Origin: Streptacidiphilus sp. ASG 303
Lineage (GTDB): Bacteria > Actinomycetota > Actinomycetes > Streptomycetales > Streptomycetaceae
Assembly (NCBI RefSeq): GCF_020991365.1
Contig: NZ_JAJLRA010000039.1
Span: 3,298-40,828, forward strand
DNA length: 37,531 nt
Direction: 5' to 3'
In this document: one piece after another, positions 9,422-13,371 of the stretch
How the letters are laid out: every line of letters begins with the position of its first letter
Numbering within the stretch: the stretch's first letter is position 1
Made by a program: the position numbers and the translations under genes
The notes under the pieces: model-generated
What the model saw: the letters and a program-made list of their open reading frames with translations, nothing else
Database searches by the model: none
Told to the model about the DNA's origin: nothing

Positions 9422-10721
9422 GCCGTACCGCTGGAGCAACTGGGCGGGCAACCGCAGCGCGCGCCCCGCGCGGGTGGCGGCGCCGTCCTCCGCCGCCGAA
9501 CTGGCCGAGGAGGTGCGGCGGGCCGCCGAGGACGGCCTCGCGGTCAAGGCGGTGGGGTCCGGCCACTCCTTCTCCTCCATCGCCTCCTCCGACGGCGGGC
9601 TGCTGGTGCTCCCGGACCGGCTGACCGCGCTGCGCTCCGTCGACCGCGCGGCGGGCACGGTGACGGTGGAGTCGGGCATGACGCTGGAGCGGCTCAACGT
9701 GCTGCTGGAGGCGGCGGGCCTGTCCCTGACCAACATGGGCGACGTCATGGCGCAGACCGTCGCCGGGGCGATCGGCACCGGCACGCACGGCACCGGCCGC
9801 GACTCCGGTTCGCTGGCGGCGCAGGTCCGCGCCCTCGAGATCGTGCTGGCGGACGGGACCGTGGCGGCCTGCTCCCCCGCCGAGGACCCCGAGCTGTTCG
9901 AGGGCGCCCGGCTGGGGCTCGGCGCGCTGGGCGTGGTCACCGCCGTCACCCTCGCGGTGGAGCCGCTCTTCCTGCTGGCCGCCCACGAGAGGCCGATGCG
10001 CTTCGACGAGGTCCTGGAGGGCTTCGACGACCTGGCGGCGGTCAACGAGCACTTCGAGTTCTACTGGTTCCCGCACACCGACCGGTGCACCACCAAGCGG
10101 AACAACCGCAGCCAGGGGCCGCCCGCGCCGCTGCCGCGGCTGCGGGGGTGGCTGGACGACGAGTTCCTGTCCAACACGGTGTGGGAGGGCGCCTGCCGGG
10201 TGGGGCGGCGGTTCCCCGCGGCCGTCCCGGCCATCGCGCAGGTGGCGGGCCGGGCGTGGTCCGAGCGGCGCTACACGGACGTCGCGTACCGGGTCTTCAC
10301 CAGCCCGCGCCGGGTGCGCTTCACGGAGATGGAGTACGCGGTGCCCCGGGCGGCGGCCGTGGAGGTGCTGCGGGAGCTGCGGGCCCTGGTGGAGCGCTCC
10401 GACTGGCGGATCGGCTTCCCCGTGGAGGTGCGGACCGCGCCGGGGGACGACGTCTGGCTCTCCACCGCGTACGGCCGCGACACCTGCTACGTGGCGGTGC
10501 ACCTGTACCGGGGGACGGCCGAGCAGGGCTACTTCGCCGGGGTGGAGCGGATCATGACGGCGCACGGCGGACGCCCGCACTGGGGGAAGCTGCACACCCG
10601 CGACGCGGAGTACCTCTCCTCGGTGCACCCGCGGCTGGCGGACTTCCGCGCGCTGCGGGACCGGGTGGACCCCGGGCGCCGCTTCGGCAACGCCCACCTG
10701 CGGCGGGTGCTCGGCGACTGA
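9381..10721 (+). CDS. FAD-binding oxidoreductase, aldonolactone/alditol oxidase family
   Basis: A 446-residue flavoprotein of the VAO/PCMH fold with a C-terminal D-arabinono-1,4-lactone-oxidase domain. The FAD domain includes VGSGHSFS, where His62 is the expected site of covalent FAD attachment, and GAIGTGTHGTG for cofactor phosphate binding. The C-terminal domain has HWGKLH and ends in DPGRRFGNAHLRRVLG, both family hallmarks. It likely oxidises a sugar lactone or sugar alcohol with O2, giving H2O2. It could be L-gulonolactone, xylitol or alditol oxidase; the sequence does not decide. GTG start with GGAGG at about 9 nt, inside the end of the MFS gene. Confidence 0.92.
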   Translation: MSKTATGSRSTTPEPYRWSNWAGNRSARPARVAAPSSAAELAEEVRRAAEDGLAVKAVGSGHSFSSIASSDGGLLVLPDRLTALRSVDRAAGTVTVESGMTLERLNVLLEAAGLSLTNMGDVMAQTVAGAIGTGTHGTGRDSGSLAAQVRALEIVLADGTVAACSPAEDPELFEGARLGLGALGVVTAVTLAVEPLFLLAAHERPMRFDEVLEGFDDLAAVNEHFEFYWFPHTDRCTTKRNNRSQGPPAPLPRLRGWLDDEFLSNTVWEGACRVGRRFPAAVPAIAQVAGRAWSERRYTDVAYRVFTSPRRVRFTEMEYAVPRAAAVEVLRELRALVERSDWRIGFPVEVRTAPGDDVWLSTAYGRDTCYVAVHLYRGTAEQGYFAGVERIMTAHGGRPHWGKLHTRDAEYLSSVHPRLADFRALRDRVDPGRRFGNAHLRRVLGD

Positions 10722-11226
10722 CGGGGCGGGGCCTCGTGCCGGGGCACGGGGCCCGAAGGCCCGGGGGCTCAGTGGCCCGGGAGTTCGGGGGCCCGGGAGT
10801 CCGGGGGGCGGAACGGCCGGGACGGGACGGCCGCGACGGCCGGCGCGGGACCCGCTGACCGGTTCGGTGCGCTCCCTGTGTGCAACCGGGGGCGGTGTTG
10901 GCAGAAACGGGCCCCCGGTTGGCCGAAAGATGTGAAGATGATCACCGTCCACCCGTCGGCGGTCGGCCATCGGAGTGGCGGCCCTTGAGATTCCGCGGAT
11001 TCGCGGGAGACTTGAGCGGCGAGCCGGACGGCCGGTGCACCACGGATGGAGTACTGTTCGGGGAGCCTGGCCCGCAGGCTGCCGCCCGACCGACCGTCAC
11101 CCGGACGGGCCGGACGGGTGACGGGGAGGTGGAGGGCGGCACTCGTCCCGGGGCCGCCCGCTCGCGGTGCAGCCCGCCGGGAGCGACTGGAGCGGCACCG
11201 GCCGACGGCGCCGCAAAGAGGTAACC
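10722..11226. other. Long intergenic region before sepH (upstream half)
   Basis: No credible gene. 10735-10748 is CGTGCC-GG-GGCACG, and a GGGCC-CGAA-GGCCC stem follows: likely terminator of the oxidase. 10774-10806 is a 17-nt near-perfect direct repeat with a 16-nt period. 10884-10920 holds a perfect 10-bp inverted repeat, AACCGGGGGC / GCCCCCGGTT, with a 17-nt loop. 10985-11012 reads TTGAGA, 16 nt, GAGACT: a plausible vegetative promoter for sepH, with CCGCG-GATT-CGCGG in the spacer. A 114-codon ORF starting at 10880 has no family likeness. Confidence 0.55.
10735..10766 (+). terminator. Probable terminator of the MFS/oxidase operon
   Basis: Two adjacent short hairpins, CGTGCC-GG-GGCACG and GGGCC-CGAA-GGCCC, starting 13 nt after the oxidase stop. 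No T-tract. Confidence 0.5.
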
Positions 11227-11271
11227 GTGCCACAGCGGCGCGTCGGGGCAGAACCCCGACACGCCGGGTAA
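11227..11271 (+). CDS. Putative 14-codon leader ORF of sepH
   Basis: GTG CCA CAG CGG ... GGG TAA encodes VPQRRVGAEPRHAG, with AAAGAGG five nt upstream, as good a ribosome site as that of sepH. The site and start GAGGTAACCGTGCC (11218-11231) recur exactly at the sepH start (11360-11373), and the peptide start VPQRRV mirrors SepH VPELRV. The ORF runs through a strong hairpin (11237-11265) and stops just after it. It may be a translated leader peptide or a decayed partial duplication of the sepH 5' end; sequence alone cannot tell. Confidence 0.4.
   Translation: MPQRRVGAEPRHAG
11237..11265 (+). promoter_or_regulatory. Hairpin in the sepH leader
   Basis: GGCG-C-GTCGGGG, loop CAGAA, CCCCGAC-A-CGCC: a 12-pair stem with one internal mismatch, 104 nt upstream of the sepH start. 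It has no U-tract. It may be an attenuator-like or RNA-stability element. Confidence 0.5.
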
Positions 11272-11368
11272 CTCTGCAATGTTGTGGCCAGCCGCCCGTC
11301 GGCAGGTCACACTCGTTACGGGAGCAGCGACGCAGGTGACGTCGGCAGGCACCACCCGGGAGGTAACC

Positions 11369-12373
11369 GTGCCCGAACTGCGTGTCGTGGCCGTCAGCAA
11401 TGACGGCACACGGCTGGTGCTCAAGGCTGCCGACAGCACGGAGTACACCCTCCCCATCGACGAGCGGCTGCGCGCCGCCATCCGCGGCGACCGCCCCCGG
11501 CTGGGCCAGATCGAGATCGAGGTGGAGAGCCACCTCCGCCCCCGCGACATCCAGGCGCGCATACGAGCGGGCGCCTCCGCGGAGGAGGTCGCGCAGCTCG
11601 CCGGGATCTCGGTGGACCGGGTCCGCCGCTTCGAGGGTCCCGTGCTGGCCGAGCGCGCCTTCATGGCGGAGCGGGCGCGCAAGACGCCGATCCGGCGGCA
11701 CGGCGAGTCCACCGGACCGCAGCTGGGCGACGCGGTGATGGAGCGTCTGGTCCTGCGCGGCGCCGAGAAGGACAGCGAGCGCTGGGACTCCTGGCGGCGG
11801 GACGACGGCACGTGGGACGTGGTGCTGCGGTACCGCGTCGACGGCGAGCCGCGCAGCGCCTCCTGGACGTACGACCCGCCGCGCCGGCTCGTGCAGGCCA
11901 ACGACGACGAGGCGCGCGCCCTGGTCGGCGAGTCGCCCGAGCGCGGCGAGGACCCGGTCTTCCCGTTCGTGCCGAGGATCGCCCGGCTGCCGCAGGAGCG
12001 CACCGCGCGCCCGGCGCTGGAGCGGCCGTCCCCGGACCGGATCATGGAGCGGCCCGCCGCCGAGGCGCGCGACTCCCTCACCAGCCTGCTGGACGTGGTC
12101 CCCAACTTCCGGGGCGACCTGGTGGTGGACCCGGCCGAGGAGCCGGCCGCGCAGGAGGAGGCGGACGAGTCCGCCGCGGCGGCCCCGGCGGCCAGCGCCG
12201 GCGCGGCCTACGCGGACATCCTGATGCCGCGTGCGGTCGCGCCGCACCGCGACCGCCTGGTCGGCACCACCGACCGGCAGGCGGAGGCGGACGGCGTGCG
12301 GCCCGGGCGGCGTGCGACGGTCCCCAGTTGGGACGAGATCGTCTTCGGCAGCCGCCGCAAGAAGCAGGACTGA
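11369..12373 (+). CDS. sepH: Cell division protein SepH
   Basis: A 334-residue SepH (DUF3071) protein, which in Streptomyces binds FtsZ and promotes filament assembly at septa. The conserved N-terminal domain covers about residues 1-170: PELRVVAVSNDGTRLVLKAA, then the helix-turn-helix-like segment AEEVAQLAGISVDRVRRFEG (about 72-91) and WDSWRRDDGTWDVVLRY. A low-complexity Ala/Glu linker follows, and the conserved tail PSWDEIVFGSRRKKQD closes the protein. The GTG at 11369 has GGGAGGT upstream and matches the family start. The leader is unusually long and carries the short ORF and hairpin listed above. It converges on the sulfurtransferase gene across a C/G-rich spacer. Confidence 0.95.
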   Translation: MPELRVVAVSNDGTRLVLKAADSTEYTLPIDERLRAAIRGDRPRLGQIEIEVESHLRPRDIQARIRAGASAEEVAQLAGISVDRVRRFEGPVLAERAFMAERARKTPIRRHGESTGPQLGDAVMERLVLRGAEKDSERWDSWRRDDGTWDVVLRYRVDGEPRSASWTYDPPRRLVQANDDEARALVGESPERGEDPVFPFVPRIARLPQERTARPALERPSPDRIMERPAAEARDSLTSLLDVVPNFRGDLVVDPAEEPAAQEEADESAAAAPAASAGAAYADILMPRAVAPHRDRLVGTTDRQAEADGVRPGRRATVPSWDEIVFGSRRKKQD

Positions 12374-12519
12374 TCCGCCCCTGACGGACGCCCCCTGCGG
12401 GCGGCCGCACGGAGCGGGGGGCGCGGGGCCCCGGGGCGGGGCCCGGGGCCCCCCCCCCGTTGACCCCCCGGGGGGGTGGGGGCCGGGACCCCGGGGCGGG
12501 GGCGGGCGGGGCCGCGGCC
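12374..12519. terminator. C/G-only convergent terminator region
   Basis: The spacer between convergent sepH and sseA is nearly pure G/C. It contains nested GGGGCCCC-type palindromes, a run of ten Cs (12449-12458) and C6G7 (12464-12476). It can fold in both orientations and probably ends both transcripts. Such homopolymers are also prone to sequencing error. Confidence 0.6.
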
Positions 12520-13371
12520 TCAGCCCGCCTGCGGACCGGTGGCCGCGGGACGGGCCGGGTCGGCCGACCACTCGCTCCACGAGCCGGGGTACAGCGCGGC
12601 GCGCAGACCGGCCGCCTCCATGGCCAGCACCTGGTGGGCGGCGGTGACCCCGGACCCGCAGTAGACACCGGTCTCGGCGGTGTCCGCGCCCAGGGCGCGG
12701 AAGCGGTCGGCGAGCGCGGCCGCGGGCAGGAAGCGGCCGTCCGGACCGAGGTTGGCGGTGGTGGGCGCGCTGACCGCGCCGGGGATGTGCCCGGCGCGGG
12801 GGTCGACCGGCTCGGTCTCGCCGCGGTACCGCTCCCCCGCGCGGGCGTCCAGCAGTAGGCCGGTGCGGGCGAGCCGGGCGGCGCCGTCGGCGTCGAGGAC
12901 GGGCATGCCGCCGGGTGCGGGGGTGAAGTCGCCGTCGCCCGGCGGGGGTTCCTCCGTGGTCAGCGGCAGTCCGGCGGCGGTCCAGGCGGCCAGGCCGCCG
13001 TCGAGGACGCGGACCCGGGTGTGCCCGGCCCAGCGCAGCAGCCACCAGGCGCGGGCGGCCGAGGTCGCCGGTCCCGCGTCGTACACGACCGCGTCGCGGT
13101 CGGCGGAGAGCCCGACGCGGCGCAGGGCGGCGGCCAGCACGCCGGGGTCCGGCAGCGGGTGGCGGCCGGCCGGACCGGGCGGGGCCGCGAGGTCCCGGTC
13201 GAGGTCGAGGTAGTGGGCGCCGGGGAGGTGGCCCGCGCGGTACTCCTGCTCCCCCGGCGGGCCGCCGAGCTGCCAGCGGACGTCGAGCAGGACGGGCGGA
13301 CGCGCGTCCCGGAGGGCCTCGGCGAGTTCGGCGGCCGCGACCAGCGGGTAGGGGGTGGGGTGGCTGTCCAT
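12520..13371 (-). CDS. sseA: 3-Mercaptopyruvate / thiosulfate sulfurtransferase
   Basis: A 283-residue tandem rhodanese protein that moves sulfane sulfur onto a thiol or cyanide acceptor. The N-terminal inactive rhodanese domain (about 8-135) has YRAGHLPGAHYLDLD and VLDGGLAAW. The C-terminal domain (about 155-275) carries the active-site loop CGSGVTA with Cys238; this loop is the mercaptopyruvate-type version rather than CRKGVTA of thiosulfate enzymes. RAGHIPGAVSAP precedes it. The ATG at 13371 follows GGAG at a longish 12-nt spacing, but no better start exists. Transcribed singly, with its own divergent neighbour upstream. Confidence 0.9.
   Translation of the reverse strand: MDSHPTPYPLVAAAELAEALRDARPPVLLDVRWQLGGPPGEQEYRAGHLPGAHYLDLDRDLAAPPGPAGRHPLPDPGVLAAALRRVGLSADRDAVVYDAGPATSAARAWWLLRWAGHTRVRVLDGGLAAWTAAGLPLTTEEPPPGDGDFTPAPGGMPVLDADGAARLARTGLLLDARAGERYRGETEPVDPRAGHIPGAVSAPTTANLGPDGRFLPAAALADRFRALGADTAETGVYCGSGVTAAHQVLAMEAAGLRAALYPGSWSEWSADPARPAATGPQAG

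Follow-up and report, generated by a model that had tools for sequence, protein, structure and literature searches.

Bacterial mRNAs with a structured translation-initiation region, in which a conserved RNA surrounds the Shine-Dalgarno sequence and start codon of one gene, include those of autoregulated ribosomal proteins and those controlled by translational riboswitches. Translational attenuators of the erm type use another arrangement, a leader-peptide ORF ahead of mutually exclusive helices. A third type of control is transcriptional and is found in the WhiA/WhiB regulon promoters of Streptomyces (excerpts of PMC3781837, PMC4850268 and PMC7968930). According to these excerpts, WhiA binds GACAC, a short motif with many occurrences in these genomes (PMC3781837), and sepH is a direct WhiAB target in S. 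venezuelae, with WhiA/WhiB binding and whi-dependent transcription reported and a further, WhiAB-independent promoter inferred by the authors (PMC7968930). The excerpts of the three papers describe no conserved sepH leader or start-region RNA structure, and nowhere in its main text does the sepH paper (PMC7968930) use the terms leader, upstream, start codon or translation.

We here analyse the sepH locus in a 37,531-nt stretch of DNA from Streptacidiphilus sp. ASG 303 (the window). The sepH coding sequence occupies positions 11369–12373 of the plus strand, as do all features below unless stated otherwise, and encodes a protein of 334 aa, to which the top relatives show 83% identity in their best segment. 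As in the WhiA/WhiB target promoters, GACAC lies upstream of the gene (11258–11262). The locus is also like the structured initiation regions, with a conserved RNA around the Shine-Dalgarno sequence and start codon, but differs in that only one gene is concerned, the predicted fold takes in 24 codons and there is no Rfam match (a search of 10500–12600 with E up to 5 gave only mir-341, on the minus strand, at 19.5 bits against a cut-off of 90). The likeness to erm-type attenuators is a short ORF before helices that may be mutually exclusive; here, however, neither ORF nor peptide is conserved.

We put a probability of about 0.55 on the reading that the feature at 11218–11373, described initially as a short ORF mimicking the sepH start, is part of a family-wide cis-regulatory sepH leader with two modules, and is neither a leader peptide nor a duplicated gene start. 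The upstream module (about −150 to −50 relative to the sepH start), a conserved block with a WhiA motif, would give developmental (WhiAB) input, probably as a second promoter. In the start module (about −34 to +72) the mRNA would fold such that GUCGGCAGGCACCA of the untranslated region (UTR) pairs with codons 16–22, enclosing a small hairpin of the Shine-Dalgarno sequence and start codon together with a hairpin of codons 6–16. This fold would set how often ribosomes begin on sepH, and would most likely respond to a binding partner or to folding order during transcription. WhiAB-linked transcription combined with a folded translation-initiation region is the most likely mechanism. The near letter-for-letter conservation of leader and start region across hundreds of species points to an extra layer of cell-division control, perhaps post-transcriptional, that the examined parts of the sepH and WhiAB accounts do not describe. 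N-terminal tags, codon optimisation or an altered 5′ end of sepH could destroy the element.

A search for SepH gave 492 confirmed stretches, and the leaders of the best 80 of these 492, from records labelled Streptomyces, Kitasatospora, Actinacidiphila and one Saccharothrix, are strikingly alike. With stricter filters, under which weak matches can be lost, a covariance model trained on 33 leaders (the window's own and those of 32 loci) matches 394 of 394 Streptomycetaceae genomes, once each, and 28 of 296 genomes in a class-wide sample, all 28 within Streptomycetaceae; among the listed 20 of the 268 class genomes left without a match there is no Streptomycetaceae. Laxer filters likewise gave one match in each of 90 family genomes, and BLAST found no second leader copy in the window's own genome. 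Over the last 100 nt of the leader, 20 matched genomes show 89.5% identity, against 57.4% for the nrdR leader. The initial annotation was right in marking the sepH leader as a meaningful region, present as it is in every family genome searched, but the working part appears to lie elsewhere than in the ORF.

Further comparisons use 201 leaders (the window, L001–L080 and L112–L231), 161 of them distinct, a sample richer in divergent forms than the family because the 90 laxer-filter loci were picked for weak scores and genus variety. This sample leaves out one further set of loci. Two SepH genes of one other genus (g71; L098 and L105) share a different, also well conserved leader. In six Streptomyces-type leaders (L031, L164, L166–L168 and L170) the 5′ module (GGTAACC...GACAC) is replaced or rearranged and the 3′ core is almost unchanged. 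The record titled Saccharothrix sp. ST-888 (L003, NZ_JYJF01000101.1) has a Kitasatospora-like sepH leader, a GTG start and an 83% identical SepH, and its label is probably wrong.

Within the window, the repeat is as first described. The exact 14-mer GAGGTAACCGTGCC stands at 11218–11231 and again at 11360–11373, 142 nt apart, and the 32-nt copies agree at 26 of 32 positions (81%; about 25 had been counted before). The 14-codon ORF runs from GTG at 11227 through the hairpin to TAA at 11269–11271 and reads VPQRRVGAEPRHAG. The hairpin, reported with 12 pairs, is present, but 11237–11248 with 11254–11265 makes 11 standard pairs and one C·A mismatch, and 12 are reached only when 11236:11266 is counted. 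Among relatives the picture is another one: the 14-mer is doubled in 4 of the 201 leaders, and the homologous 32-nt segments are identical at a median of 19 of 32 positions, with at least 24 in 8 of the 161 distinct leaders. The true sepH start reads GGTCCCCATGCC in most Streptomyces rows, so that only leaders combining AACC with a GTG start show the close mimicry, and going by these alignments the close likeness of both copies is special to a few lineages. A decayed duplication of the sepH 5′ end, one of the two origins proposed at the outset, draws on the 26 shared bases of the window; yet in most relatives the likeness is no better than at chance offsets (when every position in −190 to −60 is tried, the best 32-nt match to the start copy reaches a median of 20, compared with 26 in the window), and the leader segment is conserved in a form other than the window copy, with the consensus GGTAACCGTGCCATAACGGCG. 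Given the identity in relatives, we rejected the duplication and give it almost no credence.

The ORF is no better kept. At its aligned start the 161 distinct leaders have GTG in 132, GTC in 8, TTC in 2 and other triplets in the rest. Translation of the 132 GTG leaders would end after two codons in 94 (codon 3 is TAA in 90) and after 14 codons in 6, and in the remainder after 4 to 106 codons or not within the stretch. The usual form in the family is GTG CCA TAA, and the window's CAG in place of the Streptomyces TAA opened the longer frame. Some leaders retain CCATAAC with no GTG before it (GTC in L146, TTC in L150). No conserved leader peptide is found among the 161 distinct leaders, and the leader-peptide reading, the second of the proposed origins, was rejected on this lack of ORF conservation (a 14-codon length in 6 of 161, GTG missing from 29 of 161, variable lengths). 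We judge from the alignments that the start-like copy and its ORF (11218–11271) are incidental, a local accident and not a working part of the region. An in-frame N-terminal extension of sepH from ATG at 11279 was also dismissed, as on inspection the ATG is not kept and Streptomyces leaders have TAG and indels there.

Alignment of upstream regions, suggested earlier as the check, does find the hairpin conserved at its base, though not the ORF. In this leader hairpin (H1, 11237–11265) the basal pairs GGCG:CGCC are formed in 95.7% of alignment cells (7 changed on both sides, 27 broken) and the top pairs in 80.5% (25 both-side changes, 124 broken). The dinucleotide z for −158 to −92 is −2.53 in the window and averages −1.11 over 24 species. 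Just before H1, CCACAGC at 11230–11236 (CCATAAC in Streptomyces) may pair with 11281–11287. CCATAAC:GTTGTGG is formed in 91.3% of cells, with 103 one-side and 3 both-side kept changes and 96 broken cells; these figures argue weakly for pairing because the 3′ strand is all G/T, so that transitions in the other strand cannot break it. For that same 3′ strand, this helix was demoted from main switch to weak rival.

As such it belongs to a translated-leader attenuator, in which a ribosome on the start-like GTG would cover CCATAAC, free GTTGTGGC for pairing with GCCAC and alter access to the sepH start. The consensus fold does contain CCATAAC:GTTGTGG, which excludes GTGGC:GCCAC through shared bases, ACACUC can pair with the Shine-Dalgarno sequence, and most leaders carry the GTG, typically with a stop at codon 3. 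We nevertheless consider attenuation improbable, given the leaders that lack GTG, an ORF of anything from 2 to over 100 codons, the broken CCATAAC pairings and a fold ensemble that is inconsistent between species.

The same GTTGTGGC opens a conserved block at 11281–11313, GTTGTGGC...GTCACACT or GTTGTGGC...GCCACACTC, whose inverted repeat GTGGC:GTCAC would be either a hairpin (P2) or the −35 and −10 of a WhiAB-dependent promoter. P2 is paired in 99.8% of cells in 160 rows, with 43 one-side and 2 both-side kept changes and 2 broken cells; the both-side changes sit in two single sequences (L156 and L215). Folding of −93 to −18 gives no thermodynamic support (mean z +0.45, no better than shuffles), so that a promoter accounts for the block at least as well as an RNA fold does; −60 to +15 likewise has a positive mean z. 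In L163 nine or ten extra bases at about −95 separate GTTGTG from GTGGC, with both P2 arms intact.

That 11258–11320 is a WhiA/WhiB-dependent sepH promoter, and the leader conservation mostly transcriptional, has in our estimate an even chance and is compatible with the RNA-fold explanation. It would be laid out as GACAC, then −35 TTGTGG, then −10 CACACT, with transcription starting near 11320. Apart from the published regulation of sepH and the lack of thermodynamic RNA support for the block, GACAC occurs within −150 to −90 of 132 of the 161 leaders, and the block arms lie 17–18 nt apart in the rows inspected. A purely transcriptional account, however, leaves the invariance from −45 to the start and the stem-following codons unexplained. 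CACACT is by inspection a poor −10 at 20-nt spacing relative to the consensus, a sigma-70 consensus scan of 10720–11420 found no promoter, and GACAC is absent from −150 to −90 in 29 of 161 leaders, with the block persisting in those of the 29 that were inspected (L156, L158, L164 and L196). The leader of nrdR, a footprinted WhiA target, also has another layout; as models of WhiAB promoter layout, ftsW and nrdR were set aside as not informative enough. The nrdR upstream regions (L262–L281) have conserved boxes such as CCACAAGTTGTGG 3′ of a conserved GACAC, which look like NrdR boxes.

Further upstream, a box GGAGTACTGT that begins 321 nt before the sepH start contains the −10-like TACTGT (11052–11057) of a conserved promoter candidate. 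Its GGAGTANTGT is present within 700 nt in 146 of the 161 leaders, 185 to 359 nt before the start, and in 76 of the first 81 examined. Because GGAGTANTGT stands at no fixed distance from the leader core, transcription of the leader is probable, and the candidate fits the suspected second, WhiAB-independent promoter. On inspection, many Streptomyces leaders have a longer box, CCACnnnnGTGGCCCRAATGGAGTACTGT, around the −10 candidate (11040–11057 and homologous sites), and its palindromic part suggests a further regulator site. Between this candidate and the leader core, at 11094–11124 of the window, two 15-nt arms separated by a single base form an inverted repeat (87% complementary). Streptomyces leaders such as L009 (2318–2334) have GTGAC-N7-GTCAC just upstream of the core, at about −183 to −167, with 50 both-side-changed but 207 broken cells. 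It could be an operator or a hairpin, and presumably resembles a BldD-type site.

The strongest constraint is not at the leader ORF but around the sepH start, over about −34 to +72. Folding of −45 to +80 gives one consensus for 105 distinct sequences, predicted to join the 5′ UTR to codons 16–24, with GUCGGCAGGCACCA against codons 16–22, to enclose the Shine-Dalgarno sequence and start and to contain a hairpin of codons 6–16. In 63 sequences 96.8% of 2140 cells pair, compared with 26–48% for slid partners. The outer helix (5′ strand 11335–11338, part of helix 1, partner 11437–11440) has the weakest pairs, the first being unpaired in 18 of the 63, and is mismatched in the window. Inside it, the UTR strand of helices A (GUCGGCAG) and B (GCACCA) at 11341–11354 is almost invariant in the 63 sequences, and all 14 of its bases pair with codons 16–22 in the consensus fold. 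The coding strand of these helices (11415–11434) consists of UGGUGC for B (11415–11420) and CUGCCGAC for A (11427–11434), and CTG16, GTG17 and GCT20 are nearly fixed at the pairing bases. The start hairpin CGGG:CCCG (11357–11375; Shine-Dalgarno 11358–11364, start GTG 11369–11371) is 99.6% paired in the 63 sequences but almost invariant.

Hairpin C, wholly inside sepH (11384–11414), is predicted to pair codons 6–9 with 12–16 around a loop of codons 10–11, with a bulge at the first base of codon 14. It is 98.3% paired in the 63 sequences, its mean pair probability is 0.96 in 40 species and 1.0 in the window, and in 38 of 40 its energy lies below the average of codon randomisations that preserve the protein (mean z −1.82, 25 of 40 below −2). 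In 8 of the 14 species shown, the single-sequence minimum consists of helices A and B plus hairpin C, and the small start hairpin differs between species. The dinucleotide z for −30 to +75 averages −1.76, with 11 of 24 below −2.

Nucleotide constraint in codons 2–24 mostly follows the predicted stems. A single codon is used in at least 92% of sequences at codons 2–4, 6–9, 12–14, 16, 17, 20 and 22, and in 86% at codon 5, including codons rare in later sepH (GAA 14%, ACA 2%, GCT 2%); codons 10, 11, 18, 19 and 25 are variable and unpaired in the fold. Of 13 synonymous stem sites compared across 161 sequences, 12 carry a third base that permits pairing more often than does any other conserved site of the same amino acid in codons 25–190; for codons 14 and 24 there was a single site to compare with. 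Codon 14 itself is ACA in 148, TCA in 12 and GCA in 1. Its third base is A throughout (161 of 161) for three different amino acids, and variation falls on its first base, the predicted bulge, and not on the paired ones. None of 7 SepH genes from other families (the plus-strand ones of 14 loci) has A as the last base of codon 14.

Start-proximal codons might be conserved independently of RNA structure, for example by tuning of early elongation. The control gene nrdR is also more conserved in codons 2–24 (0.756) than in later ones (0.639 and 0.67), with 0.818 for codons 2–24 of sepH; rare codons are conserved (GAA3, ACA14, GCT20), and codons 3–5 are fixed though unpaired in the fold. We rate such an origin as rather unlikely, since the conservation mostly tracks predicted stems and spares loop codons, and codon 14 behaves as its predicted pairing would have it.

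The folded start module is, on these models, supported but not proven: the conserved nucleotide element is firm, the RNA fold likely, and its action on translation inferred. The structure was chosen after the sequences had been seen. A tree-aware covariation test gave no pair with E below 0.05 (lowest 0.13), the top pairs looking like clade markers, and both-side changes occur in 1 of 34 pairs in the 63 sequences; its power is low because the sequences are so alike. Codon 21, paired but variable, breaks helix A in 24 of 63 sequences. Taken whole, the fold has a mean z of −1.26 against same-protein codon randomisation (below −2 in 8 of 40); with permuted codons as the reference the value is −1.05. 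Codon randomisation does not make the Shine-Dalgarno sequence more open (0.45 natively, 0.44 randomised), and the start codon is only slightly less open than after randomisation (0.47 versus 0.55, lower in 28 of 40), so burial is not demonstrated. Helices A and B have mean probabilities of 0.71 and 0.64, and 0.18 in the window, where the best fold (z −1.81) instead pairs ACGCA of the UTR with codons 4–5. In the window, by these predictions, only hairpin C is firm.

We are doubtful of a bolder version, in which the sequence around the sepH start would act as a new RNA switch in the Streptomyces family, with a developmental or cell-state signal switching on translation of this FtsZ regulator atop WhiAB control. 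There, 11341–11354 would either close on codons 16–22 or be held apart by a competing UTR hairpin (CGACG:CGTCG, 11328–11344). That hairpin is almost invariant, with a loop of varying length (L206, L162), but was rejected as a candidate, its mean probability being 0.04 with the coding region present. Finally, CGACACGC of the leader (11257–11264) is perfectly complementary to GCGTGTCG of codons 4–7 (11380–11387), and such a long-range pairing might lie behind the fixed codons 4–5.
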